From a virus: DNA of 32,629 bases. The translations under genes were made by a program, and so were the position numbers. The stretch spans positions 1 through 32,629 of the IMG/VR virus record IMGVR_UViG_3300032294_001948, one strand, 5' to 3'. Positions 1-32,497 of this stretch are shown piece after piece. The notes below the pieces were generated by a model. It did no database searches, was not told the origin of the DNA, and saw nothing but the letters and a program-made list of their open reading frames with translations. Numbering within the stretch: the stretch's first letter is position 1; the number at the start of each line of letters is the position of its first letter.

Positions 1-720
1 AGAGGAATTGATTCTCGTTTTATTGGAGAATCTGTTGGATTGCTTTGCAATACTGCTTCTCTACCTGGAAGTTCTTTTGCGACAGCAGATATTGTTGGTA
101 ATTATACTGGTGTTGCCGAAAAAATGGCACATACCAGAACATTTACCCAAATTGATTTAGAATTTTATGTTGACAGGTCTTATAGAACTATAAAATTTTT
201 AGAGCACTGGATGGAATTTGTGAGTAGTGGATCACAAGAACAACCATATCAAGATGGATATTATTTTAGAATGAGATATCCTGATGAATATAAGTGTAAC
301 GCAACAAGAATTGTAAAATTTGATAGGGATTATAAAAATTATATTGAATATACTTTCTATGGATTATTTCCATTAACTTTAAATTCTACTGCTATATCTT
401 ATGAATCGTCTGGGATTTTAAAGGCAAGTGCTTCTTTCAGTTATGAAAGATATGTTTGTGGAAGAACTTATAGTATTGATATTGCTAGAAATATGGATAA
501 TAACTTAGTACCAGAGTTGGCAACTAATTTTTTAAATGAAACGAATTTAAATAAACCAGTATATATTCCAATGTCTGCTGGTGCCGCTGGTGCTGGTGGG
601 GTTAGATTTAGACCTGCTAATATTTCATCAACAGAAGCAATTGTAACTGGTCAACTTTACGATCAACTCCCATCAGCAAAAAACTTTAATTCTGTAATAG
701 GAACTAGAAGAACCCTCTAA
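1..720 (+). CDS. 19: Tail tube protein, gp19-like (5' partial)
   Basis: The frame is open from base 1, so the start lies upstream and at least 239 residues are visible. The product resembles the T4-like tail tube subunit gp19, which polymerises into the inner tube through which DNA passes. The visible part begins with a loop and strand pattern typical of this fold (SVGLLCNTASLPGSSF), then a charged strand with FYVDRSYRTIKFLEHWMEF. T4 gp19 is 163 residues; cyanophage forms are longer, as here. The C-terminal part has an Ala/Gly-rich insertion (SAGAAGAGGVRF). The position just before a gp26-like gene and the tape-measure and hub genes fits a tail operon. The identification rests on sequence recognition only. 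Confidence 0.8.
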   Translation, partial: RGIDSRFIGESVGLLCNTASLPGSSFATADIVGNYTGVAEKMAHTRTFTQIDLEFYVDRSYRTIKFLEHWMEFVSSGSQEQPYQDGYYFRMRYPDEYKCNATRIVKFDRDYKNYIEYTFYGLFPLTLNSTAISYESSGILKASASFSYERYVCGRTYSIDIARNMDNNLVPELATNFLNETNLNKPVYIPMSAGAAGAGGVRFRPANISSTEAIVTGQLYDQLPSAKNFNSVIGTRRTL

Positions 721-749: not shown

Positions 750-1469
750 ATGCCTTTACCCAAAATTTCCACACCAACTTATGAGTTGGAAATTCCTTCT
801 TCAAAAAAGACAATTAAATACAGACCTTTTCTTGTTAAAGAAGAAAAAGTTTTAATTATCGCAATGGAAAGTGAAGATAGTAAGCAGATTACAAATGCCG
901 TAAAGAATGTAATTTCTGCTTGCATTTTAACAAAAGGTATCAAGGTTGAAGAACTATCAACTTTTGACATTGAATACCTATTCCTCAACATTCGTGGAAA
1001 GTCTGTCGGGGAAGATGTTGAAGTTTTGATTACTTGCCCAGATGATAATCTTACTCAGGTTCCTACATTAATTAATCTTGATGAGATTAAAGTTCAAGTT
1101 TCTGATGATCATTCAAGAGATATTAAACTAGACGATAATCTAATCCTAAGGATGAAATATCCTTCAATGGATGAGTTTATTAAGAGCAATTTTACTGCTG
1201 GAACCGAAATTGGTGTAACAGAAACTTTTGATCTTATTGCTTCTTGTATTGAACAGGTTTATTCGGAAGAAGAGTCTTGGTCAGCAAAAGATTGCACTAA
1301 GAAAGAACTTTTAGAATTTATTGAGCAGTTGAGTTCAAAGCAATTCAAAGAAATTGAAACATTCTTTGACACAATGCCAAAACTTTCTCATACAATATCA
1401 GTTAAAAATCCAAAAACTGGTGTTGAAAGTGAAGTTGTATTGGAGGGACTTACTTCTTTTTTCGGGTAA
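750..1469 (+). CDS. 26: Baseplate hub/tail assembly protein, gp26-like
   Basis: This 239-residue protein matches the pattern of the T4 base plate protein family (T4 gp26/gp51 type; T4 gp26 has 208 residues), which acts in assembly of the baseplate hub. Conserved features are the opening PKISTPTYELEIPSS, the segment EYLFLNIRGKSVGE, a short cysteine-containing strand (ITCPDD), and an acidic helical C-terminus. A ribosome-binding sequence (AAGGA, 740-744) sits 5 nt before the ATG. The last codons contain an in-frame slippery heptamer, and the -1 frame stays open through the next small ORF. The gene therefore has the architecture of a phage tail assembly chaperone placed between tail tube and tape measure. 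The family call is firm; the chaperone role is inference. Confidence 0.78.
   Translation: MPLPKISTPTYELEIPSSKKTIKYRPFLVKEEKVLIIAMESEDSKQITNAVKNVISACILTKGIKVEELSTFDIEYLFLNIRGKSVGEDVEVLITCPDDNLTQVPTLINLDEIKVQVSDDHSRDIKLDDNLILRMKYPSMDEFIKSNFTAGTEIGVTETFDLIASCIEQVYSEEESWSAKDCTKKELLEFIEQLSSKQFKEIETFFDTMPKLSHTISVKNPKTGVESEVVLEGLTSFFG
1457..1463 (+). promoter_or_regulatory. -1 ribosomal frameshift slippery site T TTT TTC
   Basis: The heptamer fits X XXY YYZ in the reading frame of the upstream gene (codons TTT 1458-1460 and TTC 1461-1463). It lies one codon before the TAA at 1467. After a -1 slip, reading continues CGG GTA AGT ATG into the ORF at 1472-1645 without a stop. This would add 60 residues to the first 238, giving about 298. 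The geometry matches lambda gpG/gpGT-type frameshifting. I did not identify a stimulatory pseudoknot or stem downstream. Confidence 0.65.
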
Positions 1470-1471
1470 GT

Positions 1472-1645
1472 ATGGCTCATGAAGATCTTGAGTCATACTA
1501 TAAGGTTAATTTTGCCTTAATACAACATCATAAATATAGCTTGACAGAGTTAGAAAATATGATACCTTGGGAGAGAGAAATTTATCTTTCTCTTCTCAAG
1601 CAGTATATTGAAGAGGAAAATCTAAAACAAGGAATAAATGGCTGA
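1472..1645 (+). CDS. Small ORF, probable frameshift extension of gp26-like protein
   Basis: This 57-codon ORF begins 2 nt after the stop of the gp26-like gene and lies in its -1 frame. It overlaps the next gene by 8 nt. It encodes an acidic helical protein with a central LENMIPWEREIYLSLL segment. The arrangement and the PWER-type motif resemble the T extension of tail assembly chaperones, which recruits the tape measure protein. There is no clear ribosome-binding sequence before the ATG, which favours expression by frameshifting over independent initiation. It could also be a separate small protein; only expression data would settle that. Confidence 0.65.
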   Translation: MAHEDLESYYKVNFALIQHHKYSLTELENMIPWEREIYLSLLKQYIEEENLKQGING

Positions 1646-3263
1646 GATAAAATCGCCACTGTCGGGAGGATTGAGAATTGCTAGAAGAACAGTGTCTGCA
1701 GATGCTTTTGTTAGAGCAACACCTGCACCCACTCCTGCTGCTCAGCCAGATCCAGTTACAACATCATTAATTCAGAGAAACTCGTTAGCATTAAATTCGG
1801 TTTCCGAACAATTATCTGCACTGACACAACAAGTTAACTCATTAAACGTTGCGATGCAGAATGTTTATGGGAATGTTAGTCAAAGTGCTGCATTAGAAAG
1901 AAGACAAACTGCTCAGGAACAAGATCAAGAAAGAAGACTTGCTGAGCAACAATTAAGAGAAGGAAAAGAGAGTATTATTGAACGAAAGATACAAAATGCT
2001 CTTGTATATCCTGTACAAAAAGTTGCAGCAAAAGCATCATTTACTCTATCTCGTTTAATGCAATTTTTTACCACTCTTCTGGGTGGTTGGTTATTGCAGC
2101 AAGGTATAGAAACTATCAAGGCCCTTGGTGACGGAAATAGGCAAAAGTTAGAAGAAATTAAAAATAGTGTCATTAAAAATCTTGGTATTATTGGTGGAAT
2201 ATATGCTGGAATTAGGTTTGGATTAACTTCTGTATTCAATATACTAACAAGAGTTGCTGCTAGGGTTACAACTGCTGTTGCAGTTGGATTATTTTTAAGA
2301 CCCGTTCAAGCACTTCTTGATGGTGTAAAGGGAGCAGCAAATAAACTTATACCTAAAATTAAAAATATTCTCCCCAATTTTTCAAATAGTGGTAAAGGAA
2401 CACCACCGCCAGCAACACCACCGCCAGCAGCAACACCGCCCCCCGCAGGTCCGGCAAGAACAGTAGCAGAAGCAGAACAAAGAGTTTCGGGGCAAGGAAT
2501 AAACAGATTTGGGTTAACTTCTATACTCACCGGTGGTGCATTAGGAACTGGTTTAGACATTGCCGGAGGAGAAGATCCTGCAAGAGCAGCAGCAGGTAAT
2601 TTTGGTGCTGCTGGATTATCAGCTATGGCAGGAAATTTTGCCTCTAAAATTCCTGGACCACCTTGGTTAAAATTATTAACTGGGCTCGGTGCTGGGGCTT
2701 TTACTTTCAGTGAAACAATAGATCCAGTGAAGGGTTTTTATGATAAGACAACTGAAATGTTTGGTGGTGGTGCGTCTGGTGGACCAGGTGTAGATAAGAA
2801 TCTATTATCTACACCAATAACTAATAAAGTTACAGATATTGCTTTTAATTCTAATAATTTAATGGGTGATGAAAAAGAAACTTCCGACATAGCGACACAA
2901 TCTGAAAAGCAAGATTTTAGCAAACCAGCACAATATGGAGAAATTAATGTTGCTCAGTTGATGGGTGTAGAAGCAATTAATTTGCAAGATGCATTTAGTT
3001 CTTCTGCATTAAAGACTCCCATTGCTGATATAACTCCAATAAAACAGGAAGCAAAAATGAAAGCAGAAAGTGTTGGTCCTTTACCAGAACCAGCACCTAC
3101 AATTATTCCATTACCAATGGGTGGAACACAAGTTGCCGCAAAACAAGGAGCATCTGGACAAAATACTGGACCAGCAAACAATGTTCCAAGTATTGATCCA
3201 GAAAATCATAATAATTTTTATGTTGTTTATGCTCACTCAGTGTACAATGTACCGATGACATAA
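1638..3263 (+). CDS. Tail tape-measure or hub-type structural protein
   Basis: This is a 541-residue protein with an AAGGA ribosome-binding sequence at 1629-1633. Its parts in order are a Pro/Ala-rich N-terminus (about 25-40), a long polar coiled-coil-like helix (about 50-125), a hydrophobic segment (139-153, ending GGWLLQQG), further hydrophobic and glycine-rich helices (about 180-225), a Pro/Ala linker (TPPPATPPPAATPPP), and a low-complexity C-terminus. Coiled coil followed by hydrophobic helices is typical of tape-measure proteins, and the gene directly follows tail tube and chaperone-like genes. The same R-x2-x-F-x2-TL-x2-GWLL pattern occurs in the next protein, so the two look like paralogues. 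T4 counterparts would be gp29 or gp28, but I see no decisive similarity. Confidence 0.5.
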   Translation: MAEIKSPLSGGLRIARRTVSADAFVRATPAPTPAAQPDPVTTSLIQRNSLALNSVSEQLSALTQQVNSLNVAMQNVYGNVSQSAALERRQTAQEQDQERRLAEQQLREGKESIIERKIQNALVYPVQKVAAKASFTLSRLMQFFTTLLGGWLLQQGIETIKALGDGNRQKLEEIKNSVIKNLGIIGGIYAGIRFGLTSVFNILTRVAARVTTAVAVGLFLRPVQALLDGVKGAANKLIPKIKNILPNFSNSGKGTPPPATPPPAATPPPAGPARTVAEAEQRVSGQGINRFGLTSILTGGALGTGLDIAGGEDPARAAAGNFGAAGLSAMAGNFASKIPGPPWLKLLTGLGAGAFTFSETIDPVKGFYDKTTEMFGGGASGGPGVDKNLLSTPITNKVTDIAFNSNNLMGDEKETSDIATQSEKQDFSKPAQYGEINVAQLMGVEAINLQDAFSSSALKTPIADITPIKQEAKMKAESVGPLPEPAPTIIPLPMGGTQVAAKQGASGQNTGPANNVPSIDPENHNNFYVVYAHSVYNVPMT

Positions 3264-3264
3264 T

Positions 3265-5166
3265 ATGGCACAAAATCTTCAAGGGACTTTAATAAAATCA
3301 ACAATAGGAGTAGATAAAATTAAAAAGTCTGTAATGACTTTTAATAAGAGTATTAACACTACTCAAAAAACGGCGATGAAGATTAATACTTCATTGTCAA
3401 ATAGTAATCGCCAAAAACAACAATCAATAAGACTTTCCGTATCCAACTTTCAGAAAAGAAGAGAAGCAGTTAGAAGAAGAGAAAGAGAAGATATAATTGA
3501 AGCATCTGGAATTAGTGGGGCAATTAGAAGGCAGGGTAAAGTAATATCATCTAGCACAAAAGGTTTTCTTGGTAGAATATTAGATTTTATTGGAACTTTA
3601 ATGGTTGGTTGGTTATTAAATAATCTTCCAATAATTATTCGTCTTGGTGAACAACTCATAACAAGAATGGGTAAGTTATATGTTGTTTTGAGATCTTTTG
3701 TGGGTAACGTTACAACAATACTTTCTGGATTTGGAAGTCTTTTAACGGGAACTTTTAGAAATTTAATTGCTTTTGATTTCAGCACTCAGAAGCAATTAAT
3801 TGATAGTAGTCTGTCCAATATTCAAAATGGAATGATAGGTATTGAAATGGACTTTAATAGAGCAATAGATCTTCTTTCTCAACCACTTGATCTTGGATTT
3901 GATGAACTAGATATTCCAGAAGAAAGGGGTGAAGCACCACCTGCTGCACCGGAAGATGTCCCTACTACTCCTAGTGGGGGTGAGAAATTTAAACCATTAT
4001 TAGATTTAATTTCTTCTGGAGAATCTGCTGGTGGTGGATATTCTGCAATGTATCCCGGTGAGTCATATCCTCAAATATTGAATATGAGCATTGCAGAGGT
4101 TATTCAATTTCAAAAACAAAAATTAAAAGATGGGAGAAAATCCGCAGCAATTGGTAGATATCAAATGCTTTATCCTGAAAGTTATGCAAAAGCAGCTGGA
4201 CTTCCTTTAACTGCTAAGTTTTCCCCGGAAAATCAAGATAAGATGGTAATTGCATATCTCAAAAAGAATAGAAGACTTAGTGAATGGGAACAGGGAAAAA
4301 TAAGTGACGAATCTCTTAGTGAAGAACTAGCAAGAGAATTTGGAGCTTTTAGAAGTGCTAGTGGGTATGTTTTGCCGGGAAATACTGGAAGCATTGGATT
4401 CAGTAAATTAAAACCAGTTCTACAAAAAATAAAATCAACACCAGCGGCACCAGCAACACCAACACCAGTAACGCCAGTAACAGGATCTCGTGTTGTTGAT
4501 ACCGCTAAAATATCACAAGGTGGAAATAGAACAGTAGCACTGACACCAGGACAGGGATTTGGTGCTTATAGAAGTCCTACTAGATCACACGCTGGTATTG
4601 ATATTCATACTAGTGGGCAAACAGGTTGGTTAGTTGGATTTAAAGGATCAGGTACAGTAACCTACGCTGGTGTTGGTGGTGGGTATGGAAATCTGGTTAT
4701 TATTAAATCTGGAAATACCGAATATTACTTTGCGCACCTTGCAAGAATAATGGTTAAATTGGGAACTTATAATGGGCAAGTAATTGGTGAAATTGGTAAT
4801 ACTGGTGGATCGAGAGGAATACATTTACACTATGAGGTAAGACCAAATGGAAGACCAATTGATCCAAAACCATATCTAAACCTATTAGATATTGGAAGGC
4901 AAACTGCTGCACCTCAAACTGCCGCAAAACCAGCAACTTCAACAGGAATACAAATCGCAAGCGCAAAACCACCAACCACACAAGTTGCAGGAAAAGTTAC
5001 ACCAGAAAGAAAGGGACAAACAGTAGTGGTTCCAATACCAGAAATGCAAGTTGCACAAGCACCACAACAAGTTCAATCTTCATCTGGTGGTGGACTAAAT
5101 GTTTCTATTGATAAAAGTGGATTAAATAGATATATCGAACAAAGTCAGTATCTTTCCCTAGCGTAA
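3265..5166 (+). CDS. Tail-associated peptidoglycan hydrolase: muramidase-like plus M23 peptidase
   Basis: This 633-residue protein begins with a basic helical part (RRREREDI, about 65-75) and a hydrophobic segment (104-118, ending GWLL) shared with the preceding protein. A lysozyme-like domain follows at about 243-390, with a candidate catalytic Glu253 in LISSGESAGGGY and AIGRYQMLYPESY near 296-307. A Pro/Thr linker leads to an M23-type metallopeptidase domain at about 430-540, with His442 and Asp446 (SHAGIDIH), His491 (FAHLA), and His520/His522 (GIHLHYE). These are the usual zinc and catalytic positions. The protein should cut both glycan and peptide bonds of the host wall during injection. 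The tail is a low-complexity Gln/Pro/Ala region. It sits where T4 encodes hub and tape-measure proteins. Confidence 0.75.
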   Translation: MAQNLQGTLIKSTIGVDKIKKSVMTFNKSINTTQKTAMKINTSLSNSNRQKQQSIRLSVSNFQKRREAVRRREREDIIEASGISGAIRRQGKVISSSTKGFLGRILDFIGTLMVGWLLNNLPIIIRLGEQLITRMGKLYVVLRSFVGNVTTILSGFGSLLTGTFRNLIAFDFSTQKQLIDSSLSNIQNGMIGIEMDFNRAIDLLSQPLDLGFDELDIPEERGEAPPAAPEDVPTTPSGGEKFKPLLDLISSGESAGGGYSAMYPGESYPQILNMSIAEVIQFQKQKLKDGRKSAAIGRYQMLYPESYAKAAGLPLTAKFSPENQDKMVIAYLKKNRRLSEWEQGKISDESLSEELAREFGAFRSASGYVLPGNTGSIGFSKLKPVLQKIKSTPAAPATPTPVTPVTGSRVVDTAKISQGGNRTVALTPGQGFGAYRSPTRSHAGIDIHTSGQTGWLVGFKGSGTVTYAGVGGGYGNLVIIKSGNTEYYFAHLARIMVKLGTYNGQVIGEIGNTGGSRGIHLHYEVRPNGRPIDPKPYLNLLDIGRQTAAPQTAAKPATSTGIQIASAKPPTTQVAGKVTPERKGQTVVVPIPEMQVAQAPQQVQSSSGGGLNVSIDKSGLNRYIEQSQYLSLA

Positions 5167-12925: not shown

Positions 12926-15900
12926 ATGCCTCTTAATAAGCTAGAGAATTTTATCAAGAATACAGAAGGACGTATTCTTTATGTTAACCCAAATGATCTT
13001 GATGCTACTGATGGTGTTGAGAATCAGGGTAATTCATTAACAAAACCATTTAAAACGATTCAGAGAGCATTAATTGAGTCTGCTAGATTCTCATATCTAA
13101 GAGGCAATGATAATGATATCACTGAAAAAACCACCATTCTGGTGTTTCCTGGTGAACACTTAATTGATAACAGACCTGGTTATGCCATTAAAGATAATGG
13201 TGGTGTAGCAACAGCAGTTTCTCCAACTGGTGCGGAGTCATTTGCTGGTGCAGAATTAACTCTGACACTTAATTCCAATTTTGACCTTACACAACCAGAT
13301 AATATTCTCTACAAATTTAATAGTATCAATGGTGGTGTTATTGTTCCAAGAGGAACTTCAATTGTTGGTCTTGATCTAAGAAAGAGTAAAATTCGTCCTA
13401 AGTATGTTCCAAACCCAACAGATCCTAATGTTCCAAATAGTGCAATTTTTAGAATTACTGGCGCTTGCTATTTCTGGCAGTTTTCATTCTTTGATGCAAA
13501 TGAATTAGGTCTTGTTTATACCGATCCTTCCGATTTTTCCACAAATAATCAGTCAAGACCTACATTTTCTCACCATAAACTGACTTGTTTTGAATATGCC
13601 GATGGTGTAAATTTACCTGGTGGTTATAGTATTACAGACCTTGACATGTATTATAGCAAGGTCTCAAATGCCTTTAACAGAGCATCTGGAAGAGAAATTG
13701 ATCAGAAATATCCAGCAGAACCAAATTCATTCGCCAAGCAAAGACCAGAATGGGAAATCGTCGGCGCATTTGCTGCGGATCCTATCCCCATTTCTTCAAT
13801 TATTTCTGGTGATGGTGCTACGCCAGGAACAGTCGTTACAGTTACGACTCAAACACCACACGGATTAACTGGGGGAACACCCGTTAAAATTCGTGGAATT
13901 AATGTTAATGATTACAACATCTCAACAAAAGTTGCTTCAATCATTAGTCCCACAGTATTTACTTATGCATTATCTAACGTAAGGGCGAACTTACCAGCAG
14001 GCCCAGCAGCAGGACTTGCTCCTGGAGCAACAGCAGCAGTCATCATTGAAACTGATACAGTTTCTGGTGCTTCTCCTTATATCTTTAACTGTTCCTTGCG
14101 TTCAGTATGGGGTATGGGTGGAATGCACGCTGATGGTGCAAAGGCATCAGGTTTCCGCTCAATGGTTGTTGCACAATTCACTGGCGTTTCTCTACAAAAA
14201 GATGACCGTGCTTTTGTAAAATATAATCCATCAAATAGAACATACGATAGTATTGCCATTACAAAGGTAACTGGTGAAGCTCTTTCATCCGAATCCTCAT
14301 CAATCAACCAGGCATTTGTTTATCACCTTGATCCTGACGCCATTTATAGAAGAGGTTGGGAAGTCAGTCACATCAAGATGTCAAACGATGCGTTTATCCA
14401 AATCGTTTCGGTCTTTGCAATCGGTTATACATTCCACTTTGATACTCGTAGTGGTGGTGATGCTTCCATTACAAACTCCAACTCTAACTTTGGACAGGTA
14501 TCTCTTCTTGCTGATGGATTTAAGGTAGAATCATTTTCCAAAGATAACAAAGGTTATATTACATCAATCATTACACCAAGAGCAATTGTTAAAGATGAGT
14601 CGCAAATTGAATGGGTGCAATTTGATGTAACCAAGACAAAAGCGGTTGGTATTGATAATCACTTATACTTGTTAGGGTACACTAAGCAAGATATTGCCCC
14701 TCCAATTATTTCTCAGGGATATAGAATTGGTGCAAGAGTAAATGATATAGTTTATGTTGATGGTTATAAGGCAAATGTTCTTATGACCAATGGACCGATT
14801 GTTCCTCCCGCTACAACAATTTCTGGATCAAATAGTTCTGCTAAAACTTATAGTGTCACACTTTCAAATACCAATAATGGAACTGTATACACTGTTTCGG
14901 GTGGACATTCTTTAAGAAATGGTGAATCAATTCGCCTTTTCAGTGAAACTGGTGATCTTCCAGAAGGAATTGAAGAAAATACTTTGTATTATGCAGTAAC
15001 TTCGGAGAAGAAAACTACATTAGGTGCTACTGAAATTCAAATTGCTTCTTCTAGAACAAACGCATCATCACAAACACCACTGACAATTACCAGTTATGGT
15101 GGTCAACAACTTAGAATTGAAAGTAGAGTTTCTGATAAAGAAGCAGGTGAATTAGGACACCCAATTCAATGGGATCCAAATCAAAATCAATGGTTTGTAC
15201 ATGTCAATGCATCTAGTGAACTTTATACTTATATCAATGGTCTTACAACTCCAGAAACAGAAATTTCCTATGTTTTAAGAAAAGAAGATGATAGAAGCTT
15301 AGATGAAAAGATTTACAAATTTCGATATGTTATTCCTAAGGAACTTGCAAATGGTAGAGATCCAAGTGAAGGATTTATTATTCAGGATTCAAGTTCAACA
15401 ACAGTCAGAGAAAATTCAGATTTCTCATTAACAACTTTATCCAAATCAGATTATGATTTTGATCGTAATCCAAGATTCTTAACAACTTGTACATTTAGTT
15501 CTGGAACTGCGTCAGTTACTGTCAGAGCAGATTCTACTCACGATTTGAGAGTTGGTGATAAAATTATAGTCACAAATGCTCAGAGTACAACCAATACTGA
15601 CGGAACAAAGAATCTTGGATATAATGGAACATTTACAGTTTCTTCAATTACTGATGATAAAACTTTCTCATATAGTTCTACTGATATATTTGGAGTAACT
15701 CATAATCCAGGAACATTTACTAGTAATACAAACAATAGAACAAAAGATCTTCCTAGATTTACCAGATCTGATGTTAATGATAATTTCTATGTTTATAGGG
15801 TAGAAGTTATTACGCCATACATTTATAATGTGCAAGATGGTGTCTATTACTTGTATGTTCTTAATTCTGGAAATCCAGTTCCAATAGAATTTACTGATTT

Positions 15901-26214: not shown

Positions 26215-26358
26215 ATGCGCTGCAAAGTTCAACTTTTCGTTGCTGGTAAGGTCTTCGATGAGATCGTGGAAGCACGTGATTATCAGGATGCAAAGAGAAC
26301 TGCACTTGCTCGTAATCCCAGTGCAAAAGTAATCGGTGTAACTGCGGTATTCGGATGA
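26215..26358 (+). CDS. Small conserved-type protein, function unknown
   Basis: This 47-residue protein has a strong ribosome-binding sequence (AGGAGA, 26203-26208, 6 nt from ATG). The sequence has a strand, VQLFVAGKVFDEIVEARDY, and a helix, QDAKRTALARNPSAKV, then a closing strand. It is similar to small proteins I associate with cyanophage genomes, but no function is known to me. It leads the long operon of tiny genes and overlaps the next ORF by 4 nt. Confidence 0.75.
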   Translation: MRCKVQLFVAGKVFDEIVEARDYQDAKRTALARNPSAKVIGVTAVFG

Positions 26359-26603
26359 CTGAAAAGTTTTTAAAACCTTTTATTCCCTCTCCTGGTATTT
26401 TAAGTTCTAAACCAGGAGATCCAGAAGGGTATGTAACCAAGGATGGAATGTGGGCAGCAGTTCCTTTTGGTAAAAAATTTGTCATTGTGCATAATGGGCA
26501 GCAAGTTCATGTCGCTAACAATTACAAAGCAGCAAGAACTTATATCTCAAAAGAAATCAAATCTGCCAAAAGAGCAGCAACAACACTAGAAAAGTTTCTA
26601 TGA
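26355..26603 (+). CDS. Small basic protein, function unknown
   Basis: This 82-residue protein begins MTEKFLKPFIPSPGILSSKP. The middle has a strand pair (MWAAVPFGKKFVIVHNGQQV), and the end is a basic helix rich in Lys, Arg and Ala (KEIKSAKRAATTLEKFL). Nucleic-acid binding is possible from the charge, but there is no recognised domain. Its ATG overlaps the previous stop and its own stop overlaps the next ATG, so it is probably translationally coupled on both sides. Confidence 0.7.
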   Translation: MTEKFLKPFIPSPGILSSKPGDPEGYVTKDGMWAAVPFGKKFVIVHNGQQVHVANNYKAARTYISKEIKSAKRAATTLEKFL

Positions 26604-26830
26604 AACTTCTACCAATTCTCTTTCTACCATTTATTTCTTTACCTACACAAGCAATCACGTGGGATCAATTTTGGGCACCATTTACATATGATCGATCTTA
26701 TTATAGAGAATATATTCCAATTTGCAGGGAACGCATTGTTCACGAAGAATATGTTCCTGGTAATCGGTGGAGATCTGGTTATGTTAGGAGGTGGACAGAA
26801 GTTGTAAGAGTTCCTTGTGACCCTTATTAA
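26600..26830 (+). CDS. Small exported protein with signal peptide
   Basis: This 76-residue protein starts with a signal peptide: Lys2, a hydrophobic core (LLPILFLPFISLP), and a likely signal peptidase I site after TQA (residue 18). The mature part is about 58 residues with aromatic and basic residues (WDQFWAPFTYDRSYYREY, RSGYVRRWTEVVRVPCDPY). It has two Cys that could form a disulfide in the periplasm. No lipobox is present. A phage protein sent to the host periplasm could act in superinfection exclusion or lysis, but nothing in the sequence decides this. Confidence 0.7.
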   Translation: MKLLPILFLPFISLPTQAITWDQFWAPFTYDRSYYREYIPICRERIVHEEYVPGNRWRSGYVRRWTEVVRVPCDPY

Positions 26831-26853
26831 ATAGTACAACTACAACAAAAATT

Positions 26854-27033
26854 ATGGACAAAGAAGAAAAACGTCACCGTGCTCTGGGACTTTTTGTAGA
26901 GAGTGTTCTAAAACCAGATCACGAACTTCGTCAATGTGCCCATAATCAAAAATGTTACAATGAACTCCTTGAATGGAGACAAGAAGTGTTAGACTATCTA
27001 AACTCACGTAGAGAGCAGGAGTTTAGTGAATGA
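26854..27033 (+). CDS. Small helical protein, function unknown
   Basis: This 59-residue protein, starting MDKEEKRHRALGLFVESVLK, was found in the interval before the next ORF. It is mostly charged helices, ending WRQEVLDYLNSRREQEF, and has two Cys (Cys28, Cys34). It follows a 23-nt gap and overlaps the next gene through ATGA. There is no clear ribosome-binding sequence. No family was recognised. Confidence 0.6.
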   Translation: MDKEEKRHRALGLFVESVLKPDHELRQCAHNQKCYNELLEWRQEVLDYLNSRREQEFSE

Positions 27034-27263
27034 CTTCTTATTACATATGGATATTACTTTTTACAGTGGTCGCTTATCTGATTGTAACGGATAATAGCGT
27101 TGCTGCTGCTTTTTATTATCTCACAAAGTTAGCAAAATCTAACTTTGAAAAACAAAAGTGGTGGATTCTCAATAACCCACGTAATCCTGTGGTAAAATAT
27201 CTAATGTGGCGTCGTTCTATGAAACTCGCAAAAGAGTTGATGAACGAATACAAAAATAAATAA
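27030..27263 (+). CDS. Small membrane protein
   Basis: This 77-residue protein has an N-terminal hydrophobic helix (YYIWILLFTVVAYLIV, about residues 4-19), and a second weaker one (SVAAAFYYLTKLA). A basic cytoplasmic-type tail follows (KYLMWRRSMKLAKELMNEYKNK). The charge pattern suggests the tail faces the cytoplasm. It could be a holin-like or host-membrane-modifying protein, but one strong helix alone is not diagnostic. It overlaps the gene before it by 4 nt and is followed by one of the few real gaps in the operon. Confidence 0.65.
   Translation: MTSYYIWILLFTVVAYLIVTDNSVAAAFYYLTKLAKSNFEKQKWWILNNPRNPVVKYLMWRRSMKLAKELMNEYKNK
27255..27262 (+). promoter_or_regulatory. Possible T4-type late promoter within small-gene operon
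   Basis: AATAAATA matches the late octamer at seven of eight bases and overlaps the stop codon of the previous gene. It lies 21 nt before the next ATG, in a rare 20-nt intergenic gap. Chance occurrence is possible in AT-rich DNA. Confidence 0.3.
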
Positions 27264-27283
27264 CCCTATATCTGGTAATACAT

Positions 27284-27598
27284 ATGCTCTCTACACAATA
27301 TCGCCTGCGCCTTGAAGCAATCTGTGAAAAGATTGTTCTTCATGAAGAGGTGAGTTTAGAAGATATGATTTGGTGTGAGAAGTTAGCAAAATCAAATCGT
27401 TCTGCTGGAACTATGCTTCGTCAGGCAAGACGTAAGGCAGAAAATCCTAATATGGATGAGATGGATGACTTTCTAAATGCAATGGATATTGGTGGTCTGG
27501 GGCATGAAAGATTTGGTAAAAGATCTTTTGAAAGTGTAGATGATATGATAGACTGGTGGACGGAAGAAAAACCAGATGATTGGAGACAAAGGGATTGA
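27284..27598 (+). CDS. Small acidic protein, function unknown
   Basis: This 104-residue protein is mostly helical with charged residues: RLRLEAICEKIVLHEEVSLE, SAGTMLRQARRKAENPNMDE, and an acidic C-terminus (SVDDMIDWWTEEKPDDWRQ). No domain was recognised. The paired helices suggest a small interaction protein. It starts after a 20-nt gap with a late-promoter-like element and ends 1 nt before the next start. Confidence 0.65.
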   Translation: MLSTQYRLRLEAICEKIVLHEEVSLEDMIWCEKLAKSNRSAGTMLRQARRKAENPNMDEMDDFLNAMDIGGLGHERFGKRSFESVDDMIDWWTEEKPDDWRQRD

Positions 27599-27599
27599 T

Positions 27600-27785
27600 A
27601 TGAAACCTAACTTTCGTAAAGTATTGGAGATGGCACTTGAAGAAGGTGTTCGATTTGGATACAATCGTGTCCATAAACATGTAGAAAATCCGCACGAAGA
27701 TGCTGTGGTTGATTGTGTAGTTGAGAGTGCTATGAACTCTCTGTATGAATGGTTTGATTTTGAGGATGAGCATAAAAATGACTGA
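27600..27785 (+). CDS. Small protein, function unknown
   Basis: This 61-residue protein reads MKPNFRKVLEMALEEGVRFG at its start. The frame is open eight codons further upstream, but this ATG is favoured because it begins right after the previous stop. It has helical segments and an acidic end (LYEWFDFEDEHKND). Histidines cluster in RVHKHVENPHEDA, which may bind metal, though no known motif is met. It overlaps the next gene by 8 nt. Confidence 0.6.
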   Translation: MKPNFRKVLEMALEEGVRFGYNRVHKHVENPHEDAVVDCVVESAMNSLYEWFDFEDEHKND

Positions 27786-27972
27786 TAGAGCACAAGAGTT
27801 TATGAATGCAGTATGGCAGCGCAGAAACGAAGGTGCTGATACTGAGGAAAAATTGGTTGCAGCAATTCTTTCACTTGCTGCTGAAAATGTGAAGTATTAC
27901 AATGCTCAAAACGACATGATAGTCTTGGATAAGAATGATATGTTACAACTTGCTCAGGAACTTGTACAATGA
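27778..27972 (+). CDS. Small helical protein, function unknown
   Basis: This 64-residue protein, chosen from ATG 27778, starts MTDRAQEFMNAVWQRRNEGA. It is almost wholly helical (EEKLVAAILSLAAENVKYY, KNDMLQLAQELVQ). No domain was recognised. The ATG overlaps the stop of the upstream gene, and its stop overlaps the next start by 4 nt, which marks it as a coupled operon member. Confidence 0.62.
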   Translation: MTDRAQEFMNAVWQRRNEGADTEEKLVAAILSLAAENVKYYNAQNDMIVLDKNDMLQLAQELVQ

Positions 27973-28268
27973 ACTTAATTAAATTCAATAAACGCAAATT
28001 TTTGATTAAGTATAATCATCGTGAAGACTTTGGACACGAATGGTATATTCAGATTATCAATATCAAGCGTTGGAGTTTGATTCAAGCATCTGTAAGTTGG
28101 AATGATTATCCATCTTGGCCTTATCTACAAATCAAGTCTGGATCTGGTGATGTATTGAGTATTCTATTTTGGGCATATAAGTTTGGATTTGATATTGATT
28201 TTATCTCCCGTACTTGGAATTGGGATCATTTGGAGGAACTAGATGAAGACGAAACTGAACTGGTTTGA
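27969..28268 (+). CDS. Small aromatic-rich protein, function unknown
   Basis: This 99-residue protein has a basic start (MNLIKFNKRKFLIKYNHRED) and an aromatic middle with many Trp and Tyr (HEWYIQIINIKRWSL, SWNDYPSWPYLQIKSGSGD). It ends in an acidic tail (HLEELDEDETELV). The alternating strands suggest a small beta sheet. No family was recognised. The next gene begins inside its 3' end with a 26-nt overlap. Confidence 0.62.
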   Translation: MNLIKFNKRKFLIKYNHREDFGHEWYIQIINIKRWSLIQASVSWNDYPSWPYLQIKSGSGDVLSILFWAYKFGFDIDFISRTWNWDHLEELDEDETELV

Positions 28269-28590
28269 GTATTATTTTGGACACTGTTTCCAGACTGGTT
28301 GGAGAGAGATCTGGAACAACTTTAAGATGTGGAGAGATCTCATCAGTGGAAACTATGCTGATTATGCTCTGTTAAAAACTGATGATCCGTATGAAGAATG
28401 TTATCAGTGGTTCTGGTGTAGCATCAATATGGATGAAACATATCCAAAAGAGTTTCTAGAATATCTGATGGAAATGTGTGACAGAATTGATCGGGGTGAA
28501 GAGAAATTGATTCCATTGGATGAAGATTTCTTTGATAGAATAAAAGAACTTACTGATGGTGTGGAGTTAAATGATGAAGACTTTACCTGA
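28243..28590 (+). CDS. Small acidic protein, function unknown
   Basis: This 115-residue protein has aromatic helices at the start (LNWFEYYFGHCFQTGWREIW, NNFKMWRDLISGNYADY). It then has YQWFWCSINMDETYPKEF and an acidic end (KELTDGVELNDEDFT). I do not recognise a family. It overlaps the previous gene by 26 nt and the next by 20 nt, so the reading frames are tightly interlocked. Confidence 0.62.
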   Translation: MKTKLNWFEYYFGHCFQTGWREIWNNFKMWRDLISGNYADYALLKTDDPYEECYQWFWCSINMDETYPKEFLEYLMEMCDRIDRGEEKLIPLDEDFFDRIKELTDGVELNDEDFT

Positions 28591-28774
28591 TAAGAAAGCA
28601 TTGGATATTATGTGGACAGTGGCAACGTCGTCCAGTATAGAAACTGGTACACGACCCCATTACGGGTTTGCCTACCTGTTGTATGATTACCTCACAGACA
28701 ACCTCAAAAACAAGTATGGAGTCGAACTCTGCTATGAACCTCAAAGAGAAGAAAGCACTACTCAAGAAACTTGA
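28571..28774 (+). CDS. Small protein, function unknown
   Basis: This 67-residue protein starts MMKTLPDKKALDIMWTVATS. Two consecutive ATGs make the exact start uncertain by one codon. It has a helix (FAYLLYDYLTDNLKNKYGV) and a polar end. No domain was recognised. It overlaps its neighbours by 20 nt upstream and 41 nt downstream, so the 41-nt shared stretch encodes two proteins at once if both starts are right. Confidence 0.55.
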   Translation: MMKTLPDKKALDIMWTVATSSSIETGTRPHYGFAYLLYDYLTDNLKNKYGVELCYEPQREESTTQET

Positions 28775-29006
28775 AACCGTTGGAACCACCTGTATGGATT
28801 GTGGACAAAAGTATGGTGTCTATTCAGTCGGTTGTTCATCTGTCTGGAATGGTAAGTGTGGTGTTTGTGGCGAAGACAAACGTGTAACTGAAAGTCGTGA
28901 CTTTGCTTATTTTATCACTGGTATTCGCAAACTGAAACTGGAAATCCAAAATGAGAAAAATCAAAGTAAAACCAATAAGCAGCAAGGCGAAGAACCGTCT
29001 TGCTAA
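28734..29006 (+). CDS. Small zinc-finger-like protein
   Basis: This 90-residue protein reads MNLKEKKALLKKLETVGTTC at its start. Upstream in-frame ATGs at 28668 and 28716 exist but are within the previous gene. It has CMDC (about residues 20-23), later CGVCG (about residues 44-48) and a central Cys, giving a CxxC...CxxC zinc-binding layout. A basic helix follows (GIRKLKLEIQNEKNQS), and the C-terminus is low complexity, where it overlaps the next gene by 56 nt. Zinc-dependent nucleic-acid or protein binding is plausible, but the family is not known to me. Confidence 0.58.
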   Translation: MNLKEKKALLKKLETVGTTCMDCGQKYGVYSVGCSSVWNGKCGVCGEDKRVTESRDFAYFITGIRKLKLEIQNEKNQSKTNKQQGEEPSC

Positions 29007-29166
29007 CCTTATGGATAATAATCCTGTCTGTATTGTAGAACAGGACACTGGTGATGAGTTGTTTTTAGCATCAGAAAATCGTAAATACTTTTTCTGGATT
29101 AGCACTCGTACTGGTACTAACCGTTTTGGTGACAAATCTGACGCACATTGGGAGGTTATTGAATGA
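28951..29166 (+). CDS. Small basic-start protein, function unknown
   Basis: This 71-residue protein begins MRKIKVKPISSKAKNRLANL and then forms strands (NPVCIVEQDTGDELFLAS, KYFFWISTRTGTNRFGD) typical of a small beta barrel. No domain was recognised. The first 56 nt overlap the previous gene. A later start at ATG 29010 is possible and would remove the overlap, but the basic N-terminal stretch would then be lost. It overlaps the next ATG by 4 nt. Confidence 0.55.
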   Translation: MRKIKVKPISSKAKNRLANLMDNNPVCIVEQDTGDELFLASENRKYFFWISTRTGTNRFGDKSDAHWEVIE

Positions 29167-29444
29167 GTTTTTCTAAGACTGTTTCTGTTGTTGCTGCACT
29201 TGCAAGTATTTTCAGTGTTGGTGTGGCAAGTTGGAAAATGTCTGAAGAGATTAAAAAGGAACAAACTAATCCTCTTGAAGAAAAAATTCAACAACTTGAA
29301 AAGCAACTTGAAGAAGCAACGACACAAAAACCAGTTGAGCAAGTGGCACCAGCTCCACAAATAATCGCACCACAACCTGTTATAGTACCACCAGTAACAC
29401 CATCACCACCTCCTCCTCCTGTTCCCGAAAATGACACTCCTTGA
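29163..29444 (+). CDS. Membrane-anchored coiled-coil, proline-rich protein
   Basis: This 93-residue protein has an N-terminal hydrophobic helix (TVSVVAALASIFSVGVAS, about 6-23), an acidic/basic coiled coil (LEEKIQQLEKQLEEA, about 38-52), and a proline-rich end (PPPPPVPEN). The layout is N-terminal anchor plus coiled coil, as in inner-membrane spanins, but the proline-rich tail is unusual for that. A matching outer-membrane partner is not evident, so the lysis role is only a suggestion. It overlaps the next gene by 14 nt. Confidence 0.6.
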   Translation: MSFSKTVSVVAALASIFSVGVASWKMSEEIKKEQTNPLEEKIQQLEKQLEEATTQKPVEQVAPAPQIIAPQPVIVPPVTPSPPPPPVPENDTP

Positions 29445-29637
29445 TACACTTGAATACTTCATTGATGATACTCAGGCACATCTTTCTGATATTGAATGGG
29501 AAATCCGTGAAGAAACAAACTATGATGATGATGGACATCAGGAACGCATGGAACAGTTCTGTGAAGAGTATGATGAACACAAAGAACGACTAGAAGATCT
29601 TAAAACCATCAAATCTATTATTGGGGCACAAAAATGA
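29431..29637 (+). CDS. Small acidic helical protein, function unknown
   Basis: This 68-residue protein starts MTLLDTLEYFIDDTQAHLSD and is very acidic, with helices through the whole length (MEQFCEEYDEHKERLEDLKT). It may form a small helical bundle or coiled coil. The last residues are IIGAQK. No domain was recognised. It overlaps the gene before it by 14 nt and the next by 4 nt. Confidence 0.62.
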   Translation: MTLLDTLEYFIDDTQAHLSDIEWEIREETNYDDDGHQERMEQFCEEYDEHKERLEDLKTIKSIIGAQK

Positions 29638-29831
29638 CTTACGACCAACTCTATGAGCACATTACCTTTTATGTTGCTCAAGAACTTGATACCAAGCGTA
29701 AATCGTGTCTCATCCTTGGTGCTGTTATGGAGTTTATGCTTGATTGCCTTGATGAAGGTGTAGACCCACGAACACTTGATATGACTGGTTTTGTGAACGA
29801 AAAACTTGATGAATTGGAGGCAGTAAAATGA
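29634..29831 (+). CDS. Small helical protein, function unknown
   Basis: This 65-residue protein is helical (TYDQLYEHITFYVAQELDTK, CLILGAVMEFMLDCLDEG) with a closing acidic helix (TGFVNEKLDELEAV). It is linked to both neighbours by 4-nt stop/start overlaps. No family was recognised. The even helix pattern suggests a small bundle, but function cannot be read from it. Confidence 0.62.
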   Translation: MTYDQLYEHITFYVAQELDTKRKSCLILGAVMEFMLDCLDEGVDPRTLDMTGFVNEKLDELEAVK

Positions 29832-30130
29832 GCGGCGGACATTTTGGTTATTGTGGATACGATTACTACAAGGTGGCACAGTTTGCTGATGAGTTGGAAG
29901 AAGAAATCCAAAACAACGGTAAAGGCAAATATGAAGATAGAACTTATGGTCAGGAATGGTATCCAGATCACGAACCAGAAGTGATTGAGTATCTGAAAGA
30001 ACAACTTCCCAAGATGCGTAAGATGGCAGAGATCATGAGACATATTGACTATTTGTATAGTGGCGATCACGGTGATGACAGTTTCATGGAGCGTGTGAAG
30101 GAAGTAGAAGAGGAATACAAGGACACTTGA
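29828..30130 (+). CDS. MSGGHF-type conserved phage protein
   Basis: This 100-residue protein begins MSGGHFGYCGYDYYKVAQFA, a distinctive opening shared by a widespread family of small phage proteins of unknown function. It has an acidic helix (FADELEEEIQNNGKG), then EVIEYLKEQLPKMRKMAEIM, and a segment HIDYLYSGDHGDDSFMERV that is typical of the same family. It is the last gene before the terminator at 30142. I know of no assigned role for the family. Confidence 0.75.
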   Translation: MSGGHFGYCGYDYYKVAQFADELEEEIQNNGKGKYEDRTYGQEWYPDHEPEVIEYLKEQLPKMRKMAEIMRHIDYLYSGDHGDDSFMERVKEVEEEYKDT

Positions 30131-30141
30131 ATAACTGGCAC

Positions 30142-30167
30142 AGGGCATCTTCACAGGTGCCCTTTTT
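30142..30167 (+). terminator. Rho-independent terminator
   Basis: AGGGCATCT (30142-30150) pairs with AGGTGCCCT (30155-30163) around the 4-base loop TCAC, with one G/T pair. Five T (30163-30167) follow, the first being the last stem base. A TATAAT begins 5 nt later, so transcription is ended and restarted at one site. Confidence 0.8.
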
Positions 30168-30171
30168 GTCG

Positions 30172-30177
30172 TATAAT
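30172..30177 (+). promoter_or_regulatory. -10 element after terminator
   Basis: A perfect TATAAT stands 4 nt after the terminator T tract, as at 23462. The expected -35 position falls within the hairpin (30149-30154, CTTCAC) and fits the consensus poorly, so an activator or phage-modified polymerase may be needed. The first gene downstream starts at 30199. Confidence 0.55.
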
Positions 30178-30198
30178 AACTTCAGTTCAAACAAACCG

Positions 30199-30357
30199 AT
30201 GACCACCATCACTCAAGAGCACTGGGACACACTCTATACCAAACTCTATGAGGCATATGAAGAGTGCAGTAAGAACTATGATGAGACTTACCGACAAATG
30301 ATCGGTCAAGTTCTGGATCACATGATCTATAACAAACCTTATTTGAACATCAAATGA
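30199..30357 (+). CDS. Small protein, function unknown
   Basis: This 52-residue protein starts MTTITQEHWDTLYTKLYEAY, from the first ATG after the promoter; the frame is open further upstream across the terminator. It is helical (EECSKNYDETYRQMIGQVLD) and acidic. The last codons overlap the next start by 4 nt. No family was recognised. Confidence 0.62.
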   Translation: MTTITQEHWDTLYTKLYEAYEECSKNYDETYRQMIGQVLDHMIYNKPYLNIK

Positions 30358-30527
30358 TCAGAACAATTCTCAATCAGTTTCCTGCTCGCTATGGATCTTA
30401 TTCTGCTGAAGGTAACAAGATCCGCCGAACATTCTCCAACGGTTTTAGTTACATCGTAGAAGAATGTAAGTCACCACAAGAAGCACAACGCATCGTAAGT
30501 GACCTCAACTATCTTACAGACAAATGA
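30354..30527 (+). CDS. Small protein, function unknown
   Basis: This 57-residue protein, MIRTILNQFPARYGSYSAEG at its start, was read from the interval between two listed genes. It has a strand section (KIRRTFSNGFSYIVEEC) and an acidic helix (SPQEAQRIVSDLNYLTDK). It is coupled to both neighbours by ATGA overlaps. No domain was recognised. Confidence 0.6.
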   Translation: MIRTILNQFPARYGSYSAEGNKIRRTFSNGFSYIVEECKSPQEAQRIVSDLNYLTDK

Positions 30528-30619
30528 TTGTAATTATTACAGGTAGTTTTATTTCTTTAATCATCTGTAGTATTCTTTTCAAACTTGACGGACTAAATGA
30601 CATTCAAAACGATGACTGA
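30524..30619 (+). CDS. Tiny single-helix membrane protein
   Basis: This 31-residue ORF starts MIVIITGSFISLIICSILFK, a continuous hydrophobic helix, and ends LDGLNDIQNDD. It overlaps the previous stop by 4 nt and the next gene by 8 nt (or more if the next gene starts at 30597). Coupling to both sides supports it as a real gene in spite of its size. A one-pass membrane peptide could regulate a host membrane protein, but this is speculation. Confidence 0.5.
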   Translation: MIVIITGSFISLIICSILFKLDGLNDIQNDD

Positions 30620-30899
30620 AACTAAAACCTATCCCTACCTCAAATACATTCCACATCTTGTTGCAATTCGGTTGATTGTGCTTAGTCCCTTTGCGATTGC
30701 ACAAGCAACGGCAGAATTTATCTCCAACTCTTTGGACAAAGTGTGTCATAAGATTGATAAATTTCTCCCATCACCTTATATTGAAAAGCAAGTAGAATGG
30801 GATCAGTTGCCTAAACGAAATCAAAAAGCGATTGAACAACTTGCAAAAGCACGGGACACTACCAAAGAACGAATTCTCATTCAAACTGTGAAACCATGA
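30612..30899 (+). CDS. Small protein with amphipathic helix, function unknown
   Basis: This 95-residue protein is counted from ATG 30612; an ATG at 30597 in the same frame would add five residues. It begins MTETKTYPYLKYIPHLVAIR with a hydrophobic segment (LVAIRLIVLSPFAIAQATAEF) long enough for one membrane pass, then a charged tail (EKQVEWDQLPKRNQKAIEQ). No family was recognised. It overlaps the next ATG by 4 nt. Confidence 0.58.
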   Translation: MTETKTYPYLKYIPHLVAIRLIVLSPFAIAQATAEFISNSLDKVCHKIDKFLPSPYIEKQVEWDQLPKRNQKAIEQLAKARDTTKERILIQTVKP

Positions 30900-31138
30900 C
30901 TAAATCATTACCACAAAAAACACACGCAGAGACACTAATTAAGGTCACAGAAGAATACACTCTACGACCCAAATCAGGTGATCGTGCTCGTGTATGTATT
31001 GCTACTCTTCAGTATCTGCTGGACAACTTTGCTTATGATCTTGAACCTAGAGATGATTGGGATAGTGGTATTTCTGGGCAATATGTAGATACTATGGACA
31101 TTCATCATCTTATTTACCAACTGCAAAAACTGAAATGA
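30896..31138 (+). CDS. Small protein, function unknown
   Basis: This 80-residue protein reads MTKSLPQKTHAETLIKVTEE at its start and has RPKSGDRARVCIATLQYLLD followed by an acidic loop (EPRDDWDSGISG) and a helix (MDIHHLIYQLQKLK). No domain was recognised. It is coupled to both neighbours by 4-nt overlaps. Confidence 0.62.
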   Translation: MTKSLPQKTHAETLIKVTEEYTLRPKSGDRARVCIATLQYLLDNFAYDLEPRDDWDSGISGQYVDTMDIHHLIYQLQKLK

Positions 31139-31311
31139 ACTACCTCTGCCTTGTTGATGGTGTCGTAGAATACGGCAGCACAGACCTCTACCAATTCAAT
31201 CATTATCGTATGATGTATTATGAAGACCACAAAGATGCTGAAAATGTAGAGTATCTTGTGCTGACTGATGAAGCATACAACGAAATGTTCCCTTGTGAGG
31301 ATGAAGAATGA
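31135..31311 (+). CDS. Small acidic protein, function unknown
   Basis: This 58-residue protein (MNYLCLVDGVVEYGSTDLYQ at the start) was read in the gap between annotated ORFs. It has strand-like starts, a His/Tyr-rich middle (FNHYRMMYYEDHKD), and an acidic end (MFPCEDEE). It is tied to its neighbours by ATGA overlaps. No family was recognised. Confidence 0.6.
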   Translation: MNYLCLVDGVVEYGSTDLYQFNHYRMMYYEDHKDAENVEYLVLTDEAYNEMFPCEDEE

Positions 31312-31466
31312 CCTACCTCATCACCTATGACTATAAAAACGATTTGGAACAACGACACCAACGACACAAAACGATGCAGATGGCTATTGCGACTGCTAAT
31401 CTTCTGATTGCTCACGGAGATTATGTGATTGATAGTATTACTACTGAATATGGTGAAGAAGAATGA
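31308..31466 (+). CDS. Small protein, function unknown
   Basis: This 52-residue protein starts MTYLITYDYKNDLEQRHQRH. A helix (KTMQMAIATANLLIAHGDYV) and an acidic end (TTEYGEEE) follow. It overlaps both neighbours by 4 nt. No family was recognised. Confidence 0.6.
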   Translation: MTYLITYDYKNDLEQRHQRHKTMQMAIATANLLIAHGDYVIDSITTEYGEEE

Positions 31467-31744
31467 CTAACGAAGAACTCACAGTATCAAATGAATTCAC
31501 CACATTTGTAAGAATTCAACTTGACCACGAACAAAAGCAACAACTCAATCGTTATCTAAATCTCCATTATCTTAATGATGTAAATTGTAATGAGTATGAT
31601 GAGAACTTCAAACTTGTTCCCAAATACCCAGAGAAAGAAACAGAAGAGTTCAAAAATGCTATGTGGAGAGCAAATATGGTTCACGATTATCAAGTTAAAG
31701 TTGTGTATGATGTAAATGGTAAATGTAAATTGGAGTTGCTATGA
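31463..31744 (+). CDS. Small protein, function unknown
   Basis: This 93-residue protein has MTNEELTVSNEFTTFVRIQL at the start and a helical middle (DHEQKQQLNRYLNLHYLND). A charged loop (PKYPEKETEEFKN) and two closing strands follow (VKVVYDVNGKCKLELL). No domain was recognised. It overlaps both neighbours by 4 nt. Confidence 0.62.
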   Translation: MTNEELTVSNEFTTFVRIQLDHEQKQQLNRYLNLHYLNDVNCNEYDENFKLVPKYPEKETEEFKNAMWRANMVHDYQVKVVYDVNGKCKLELL

Positions 31745-32004
31745 ACTACGAAACTGAAATCATAGATGGACGCAAAGCAGTTGTCCGTCATTTCTTTGAA
31801 CCACACGAAATCCAAGTGGGTTCTCGTTGGGCACGAGCAGATGAATCCAAAGGTTATGTAACTGTTGAGGGTTTCAATTATTATGGAAGCACAAATCCTT
31901 ATGATTGGGATGTTGTGTATTCTTGGGAAGAGAACGGTGTAAAGAAAACCTGGCAAAAGGAAATGTTTATTTTTCAAACCAAATATTGCCTGATTGTAGA
32001 ATGA
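31741..32004 (+). CDS. Small beta-rich protein, function unknown
   Basis: This 87-residue protein starts MNYETEIIDGRKAVVRHFFE. Short strands follow (QVGSRWARADESKGYVTVEG, WDVVYSWEENGVKKTWQKEM), so a small beta barrel or sheet is likely. No family was recognised. It overlaps both neighbours by 4 nt. Confidence 0.62.
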   Translation: MNYETEIIDGRKAVVRHFFEPHEIQVGSRWARADESKGYVTVEGFNYYGSTNPYDWDVVYSWEENGVKKTWQKEMFIFQTKYCLIVE

Positions 32005-32258
32005 AACTCTTCCAATACGATAAAAAAGTTTGGGAAGGTGGTGAAACCTCACACACTTGGCAGTTTGGTATTCTCAAAAATCATTCACTTCTGTGGGTGA
32101 ATTATGAGAACCCCAGTTGTCAAGTTTATCCTTCTGGTGGTTTTCATATCCTATTCTCATTTTTTACTTCTTCTTTGTTTGGAGTAGATTTTCAGGTTGG
32201 TGATGTTGATTTGAGTTTTAATTTGTTGTCTGATTACTTTGAAGGGTGGGATGAATGA
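32001..32258 (+). CDS. Small aromatic-rich protein, function unknown
   Basis: This 85-residue protein from ATG 32001 (the frame is open upstream, but only within the previous gene) reads MKLFQYDKKVWEGGETSHTW. Its hydrophobic and aromatic composition (FHILFSFFTSSLFGVDF) suggests a beta sheet with a possible membrane contact. It ends in DLSFNLLSDYFEGWDE. No domain was recognised, and it is coupled to its neighbours by ATGA overlaps. Confidence 0.6.
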   Translation: MKLFQYDKKVWEGGETSHTWQFGILKNHSLLWVNYENPSCQVYPSGGFHILFSFFTSSLFGVDFQVGDVDLSFNLLSDYFEGWDE

Positions 32259-32497
32259 CTGACCTTGAACGACTACAAGCATACGATGAGGAACTCTCGA
32301 AAGTTATGCCGAAAGATTATAAGGATTGGCACCAGAACTCAAAGGATGAGAGACCCGAAGTTGCCCGTTGGGTAATTGAGAACCTGCGAAAAGACCGTGA
32401 ATGGTGCTATGAGGTAATGGATAAACAAGCACTAAAAATCAAAGAACTTGAAGAACAAATTGAATATCTTGAATGGCGTGCTTATGGTGAGGAATGA
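32255..32497 (+). CDS. Small acidic coiled-coil protein, function unknown
   Basis: This 80-residue protein has charged helices throughout (MTDLERLQAYDEELSKVMPK, EVARWVIENLRKDREW), ending in a coiled-coil-like helix (QALKIKELEEQIEYLEWR). No family was recognised. It overlaps the gene before it and the next one by 4 nt. Confidence 0.62.
   Translation: MTDLERLQAYDEELSKVMPKDYKDWHQNSKDERPEVARWVIENLRKDREWCYEVMDKQALKIKELEEQIEYLEWRAYGEE

Follow-up and report, generated by a model that had tools for sequence, protein, structure and literature searches.

The end of the gp26-family gene

The window, by which we mean the whole 32,629-nucleotide stretch of viral DNA analysed here, is a fragment of a T4-like cyanophage. 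A tail tube-family gene, incomplete at the window start (1..720; phrog_45, E 1e-34; PF23849, E 2e-18), lies directly upstream of a gp26-family gene (750..1469; 239 amino acids; PF12322, E 6e-75; phrog_150, E 4e-82), which we read as the short form of a tail assembly chaperone (TAC-N, lambda gpG-like). Downstream ORFs are candidate tape-measure genes only. The first (1638..3263, plus strand; 541 amino acids), to which no family is assigned, is placed in the tape-measure region by its position and has weak PHROG matches only. The second (3265..5166, plus strand; 633 amino acids) carries an M23 peptidase domain (PF01551, E 3e-18), and its weak tape-measure PHROG matches fall on the peptidase region. 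Upstream of the M23 domain this protein also matches an endolysin family; it could act as a lysin carried in the virion or belong to the tape-measure complex.

A slippery heptamer lies at the end of the gp26 gene. The zero-frame codons at the 3' end read TCT-TTT-TTC-GGG-TAA, and the heptamer T TTT TTC (1457..1463, plus strand) stands in the X XXY YYZ phase one codon upstream of the gp26 stop (TAA, 1467..1469, plus strand), just as the first-pass annotation had described it. TTTTTTC occurs in phase once among the 7,899 codons of 16 window genes, at this position. The same genes hold 40 in-phase XXXYYYZ heptamers, of which only that of gp26 lies four codons or fewer from a gene end. Because synonymous codon choice alone could account for the heptamer in the window (p about 0.10), a single sequence is little proof of its meaning, and the comparison with relatives described below is decisive.

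The −1 frame leads into a gp51-family domain. A −1 slip makes CGG at 1463 the next codon, from which the frame runs uninterrupted to its stop at 1643-1645 (extension 1463..1645, plus strand; 60 codons after the slip), reading SFF-RVSMAHEDLESYYK... The predicted gp26-gp51 fusion has 298 amino acids, with ...GLTSFFRVSMAHED spanning the junction. We assign the extension, as a C-terminal T-like domain, to phrog_634 (baseplate hub assembly catalyst gp51; E 3e-28); its AUG-initiated version (1472..1645, plus strand; 57 amino acids) matches the same family at E 8e-27. The 57-codon ORF reported from the letters alone is thus present in the −1 frame and belongs to a known family, gp51, even though no Pfam model matched it. 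The ORF has a further match in the last 40 positions of the gp26 profile phrog_150 (E 1e-8); therefore, some phages carry both parts in one protein.

Cyanophage records annotate gp51 as a separate gene, “baseplate hub assembly catalyst”. In GenBank, gp51 also appears as short ORFs that begin at internal codons (e.g., 34 amino acids at 3070-3174 of locus L098 and 47 amino acids at 3750-3893 of locus L085), and C48C1 and Melnitz are examples of records with such truncated ORFs. Several other records have no gene annotated at the gp51 position. The family is thus often misannotated or missing in these records.

Conservation of the heptamer and its flanking elements

The heptamer is invariant among close relatives. 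We compared a close set of 81 sequences, comprising 80 homologues at 66-90% identity and the window. All 81 have the heptamer, and each time the −1 frame enters gp51, within each contig's reach. Loss of the heptamer or of its phase in close relatives that keep both ORFs, which the first-pass annotation had named beforehand as the observation that would speak against a frameshift, is seen in none of them. Every close locus has TTT as codon 237 and TTC as codon 238, and TTC makes up just 28% of the Phe codons in these genes.

The heptamer is also kept by distant relatives. An in-phase TTTTTT(C/T/G) is present in 177 of 178 loci (TTTTTTC in 139, TTTTTTT in 36, and TTTTTTG in 2), although many of these loci are mutually related and the counts are not independent events. 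In these 177 loci the heptamer and the stop are 0 to 8 codons apart. The −1 extension is at least 40 codons long in 171 loci, and its translation shows conservation beginning at the heptamer. Heptamer, phase, and −1 ORF, whose conservation in relatives had been suggested as a check, are therefore kept together in nearly all 178 loci. Because many loci are kin, the weight of this conservation rests on the spread of hosts and on the identities, which fall to only about 22-45% in gp26 among the distant relatives that keep the heptamer. Their hosts include Caulobacter, Rhizobium, Vibrio, Aeromonas, Stenotrophomonas, and Desulfovibrio, and the loci include those of Cr30, pf16, Marzo, Desulfovibrio 7757, Aswh_1, ACP17, Bakedbeans, KVP40, phiM9, P10VF, Melnitz, S-H34, and C48C1.

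Many −1 frames have no start codon near the heptamer. In 65 of 171 loci (29 distinct peptides), the 15 codons that follow the heptamer include no ATG, GTG, or TTG. These loci keep the peptide from its first residues (e.g., RISLSHNSLEAYFETNFAL and similar), and Desulfovibrio phage 7757 has none of the three codons across the whole extension. A start-less −1 frame with a conserved peptide leaves frameshifting as the only evident route to gp51 in those 65 loci.

An SD-like element precedes the heptamer. In the window this putative 5' stimulator is GGAGGG (1442..1447, plus strand), 9 nt upstream of the heptamer. In 81 of 81 close loci, the end of an SD-like AGG(G) and the T run are separated by 9-10 nt, and AGG occurs in 84 of 96 distant loci, mostly at 9-11 nt. 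Codon choice follows the same pattern: Glu232 is GAG in 72 of the 81 close loci, against 31% GAG overall. The same GGAGGG is the sole SD-like stretch upstream of AUG 1472, from which it is 24 nt distant; the AUG had been said to lack a clear ribosome-binding site, and this is what we see.

A putative 3' stimulator follows. A stem-loop (1469..1499, plus strand; arms 1469-1479 and 1489-1499, 11 bp, with a 9-nt loop) begins 5 nt after the heptamer, and its 5' arm contains AUG 1472. The 60-nt stretch from 1469 in the window has an MFE z of -5.2 relative to shuffles. Across 75 distinct sequences, 82.5% of the hairpin cells are paired, compared with 27-50% for slid versions. Cells changed on both sides number 41 against 14.5 in shuffles, and the observed covariation score was reached in 0 of 500 shuffles, a control that overstates significance for related sequences; the slid versions lag well behind too. 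Pair types at columns 21-35 are UA 32, GC 13, and AU 11. Distant groups have other stems at the same place (GCCTCT...AGAGGC and GCCTGT...ACAGGC), some groups have none, and the hairpin is weak in three loci (L133, L141, and L174). Their proper spacing suggests that the SD-like element and the hairpin, the latter not universal, may both stimulate shifting.

The arrangement resembles the dnaX cassette of E. coli, which likewise combines an upstream SD-like stimulator, an X XXY YYZ heptamer, and a downstream stem-loop. The dnaX heptamer is A AAA AAG, however, and its frameshift yields the shorter product at about 50%. In E. coli, U_UUU_UUA and U_UUU_UUU shifted less readily than A_AAA_AAG (PMC5009743), and the shift efficiency in the window may therefore be low.

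Taken together, gene 26 and the downstream gp51 ORF very probably constitute one recoded gene, in which a predicted −1 slip gives a gp26-gp51 fusion. This reading draws on the heptamer, its phase and conservation, the start-less −1 frames, the covariation of the hairpin, and the homology of the fusion to T4 gp51, and it gives the frameshift close to the strongest support that sequence by itself can offer. That ribosomes slip here at all, how efficiently they do so, what the putative stimulators do, and which proteins are clients are inferences. Most ribosomes would terminate at 1467 and release gp26, the short chaperone of 239 amino acids. A minority, aided by the upstream SD-like element and the downstream hairpin, would slip by −1 on T TTT TTC as two Phe tRNAs re-pair from TTT TTC to TTT TTT. 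These ribosomes would enter the gp51 frame and produce the 298-residue fusion, the long chaperone.

It is conceivable, if rather unlikely, that the window lineage uses both routes, making the fusion by frameshifting and some free 57-residue gp51 from AUG 1472. This AUG is retained by most close relatives. Its conservation is accounted for by hairpin pairing, however (columns 16-18 with 38-40): because the AUG sits in the 5' arm, it can be conserved without any role as a start codon. Furthermore, it is lost in relatives that retain the ORF, and there is no SD near it.

T4 gp51 and the likely chaperone role

T4 gp51 has the layout of the predicted fusion. In this 249-residue protein, residues 1-201 match PF12322 (E 4e-52) and are followed by the gp51 C-terminal domain, the end of which matches phrog_634. 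The gp51 proteins of Thanatos-2 and avDM3 have the same gp26-like and C-terminal layout. Aligned with T4 gp51, the fusions predicted for the window and for 14 other phages show no gap across the junction. Genes 26 and 51 are divergent neighbours in T4 and the similar phages examined. Since T4 gp51 holds a gp26-like part and the same tail in one frame, T4 has the short and long chaperones as separate genes and not through a frameshift. The window and T4 thus agree in that gp26 is the short form and that a longer product adds the same C-terminal domain to a gp26-like one; they differ in that T4 has two divergent genes without a frameshift, whereas the window has one recoded gene. Two products with a common N-terminal domain, the long one with an extra C-terminal domain, are predicted in the window, and the long one is a real gene in T4.

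The predicted fold of gp26 is similar to that of known tail assembly chaperones. AF2 models of gp26 (pLDDT 86.7) and a T4-like gp51 (pLDDT 82.9) have the same order of elements, with additional C-terminal helices in gp51. Among re-aligned Foldseek candidates, the top PDB matches of gp26 are 2ob9 (Z 8.0), 3fgx (Z 7.8), and 3klu (Z 7.2), and the next scores 5.1. The match to 2ob9, the HK97 tail assembly chaperone, aligns 84 residues at an rmsd of 4.0; 3fgx and YqbN (3klu) are presumably TAC relatives. The TAC-like match is confined to gp26 residues 1-95. Over residues 1-88 the predicted fold resembles 2ob9 and 3klu, but identity is about 6-8%, and gp26 has roughly double their length. For the full T4-like gp51 model we obtained only weak matches (2ob9, Z 3.7). 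Foldseek returned no match at E <= 0.001 for either model (gp26 E-values were about 1), and sequence searches of the gp26 and gp51 profiles against the PDB gave no significant match. The fold is thus supporting evidence and not proof, because a Z of about 8 is borderline, perhaps reflecting only a common arrangement, and Foldseek gave no significant match.

We consider gp26 and gp51 of the window likely to be a tail assembly chaperone pair. The proposal that the gp26 family are such chaperones had been made from the letters alone, and both the HK97/YqbN-like predicted fold and the natural fusion in T4 gp51 argue for it. The lambda gpG/gpGT geometry that had been claimed is found as well: a −1 slip just before the stop of the short gene, with the extension in the next frame. 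In both systems, long and short forms have a common N-terminus. The heptamers differ, that of lambda being G GGA AAG, and no sequence similarity is shown; the window adds the SD-like and hairpin elements, and gp26 reaches well past its 95-residue TAC-like part. Xu, Hendrix and Duda reportedly described a conserved TAC frameshift in 2004.

By analogy with lambda, gp26 would form a coat around the tape-measure protein, and recruitment of tail tube or hub proteins would fall to the C-terminal domain of the fusion. Binding of the tape-measure protein by gp26 and of the tube protein by the fusion tail would correspond to the lambda case (PMC5009743). The products of 1638-3263 and 3265-5166 are possible clients, the first from gene order only.

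A different function for the same frameshift is improbable. Here gp26 would be a structural hub subunit and not a chaperone, and the fusion would serve baseplate assembly unlike that of lambda. Records annotate these proteins as baseplate hub, and genetic studies put gp26 in the hub (PMC3004832). Yet the same review lists T4 gp26 and gp51 as hub assembly chaperones, with gp51 required for assembly of the tail yet absent from the virion (PMC3004832). The predicted fold of gp26 matches TACs, the gene comes after the tail tube gene, and an independent group has named TAC genes of T4-like phages (Vladimirov et al. 2022, as cited in PMC10885494 and PMC12846349). The first-pass annotation had noted that T4-like phages are usually not thought to keep the general tailed-phage gene plan in this visible form; as these citations indicate, the general idea that such phages have these chaperones was already published in 2022. 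According to PMC10885494, Vladimirov et al. also noted that some T4-like phages have a short gene and a long fusion gene instead of a frameshift.

A similar arrangement is described for the TAC genes of Pseudomonas phage Adele, Vandenendeviridae, and Andersonviridae, which have a poly-T slippery motif at the TAC-N 3' end and a −1 frame open in all genomes (PMC12846349). Unlike the window, these belong to another phage lineage and have a GTTTTT motif, and the accessible text does not mention a hairpin and SD cassette (PMC12846349).

Exceptions and a proposed ancestry of the probable frameshift

Two loci depart from the −1 arrangement. In S-SCSM1 (locus L082, 2975-3024), the heptamer is kept, but what looks like an insertion of 11 nt just past it shifts gp51 to the +1 frame; this is either an error in sequencing or a true loss of the −1 layout. 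In Vibrio phage D532 (locus L091, around 3640-3680), the heptamer is lost (TCA CTT TTC AAG TAATG) and the −1 ORF is retained, with an overlap at TAATG; this phage may have switched to termination-reinitiation.

The overlap in D532 bears on the idea that gp51 is made separately throughout, by reinitiation at AUG 1472 after the gp26 stop, to give a free 57-residue protein, with the heptamer a by-product of encoding Phe-Phe. The AUG in the window is two bases past the stop, an ATG is the first start at that codon in 66 of 178 loci, and records annotate gp51 as its own gene. We nevertheless regard separate synthesis as very unlikely. It does not account for the 65 loci that have no start in the first 15 codons, or for the one that has none at all, each with the peptide conserved from the heptamer, nor does Phe-Phe account for the invariant TTT TTC. 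The sole SD-like element stands closer to the heptamer (9 nt) than to the AUG (24 nt), the AUG is buried inside the 11-bp stem, and T4 gp51 is itself the fusion. Slippage of RNA polymerase on the T6 or T7 run is still harder to credit: homopolymer slippage occurs in bacteria, but the T runs at these loci have a length of six or seven, in most cases six followed by C, and are shorter than the runs of 9 A/T cited for bacteria (PMC5009743), and an in-phase X XXY YYZ with SD and hairpin at ribosomal spacings points to translation.

With ribosomal frameshifting as the preferred reading, T4 would have replaced the frameshift by gene duplication and fusion, so that the two products come from separate genes 26 and 51. 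We found no remnant heptamer at T4-type gp26 ends: T4, Nispero, and Virsaitis27 have TTC TTT, the non-slippery order, and other T4-type gp26 genes have lost Phe-Phe at the 3' end. No second gp26-type gene lies within the 32.6-kb record, a genome fragment, and a separate full-length gp51 is possible elsewhere in the genome of the window phage. On balance, we favour a history in which the cassette of SD-like element, T TTT TTY, and stem-loop is ancestral for the long chaperone outside the T4/Tevenvirinae-type lineage and cyanophages have no independent gp51. The cassette would then have been left by two routes, duplication and fusion in T4 and termination-reinitiation in D532-type vibriophages.

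A frameshift would explain why cyanophage gp51 looks truncated. Sullivan et al. 2010 noted that cyanophage and marine vibriophage gp51 is without its first ~200 residues, the accessible text giving no cause (PMC3037559). The T4 hub protein gp51, in 2010 described as essential and of unknown function, would have lambda gpGT as a clear counterpart. Genes 26 and 51 have already been studied genetically in T4, and the same chaperone pair can therefore be compared with and without frameshifting. We found no published evidence for this frameshift in cyanophages in the open-access literature. In the accessible literature, which represents Vladimirov et al. 2022 through citing papers, we likewise found no description of the cassette, the start-less relatives, or the AUG-containing hairpin.

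Other features of the window lie further downstream. Positions 12926-18400 encode a 1,824-residue tail fibre-like protein (phrog_529), with C-terminal matches to several further tail fibre and baseplate families. Positions 26355-32628 contain many short, packed plus-strand ORFs of about 45-115 amino acids, many of them with 4-nt overlaps.
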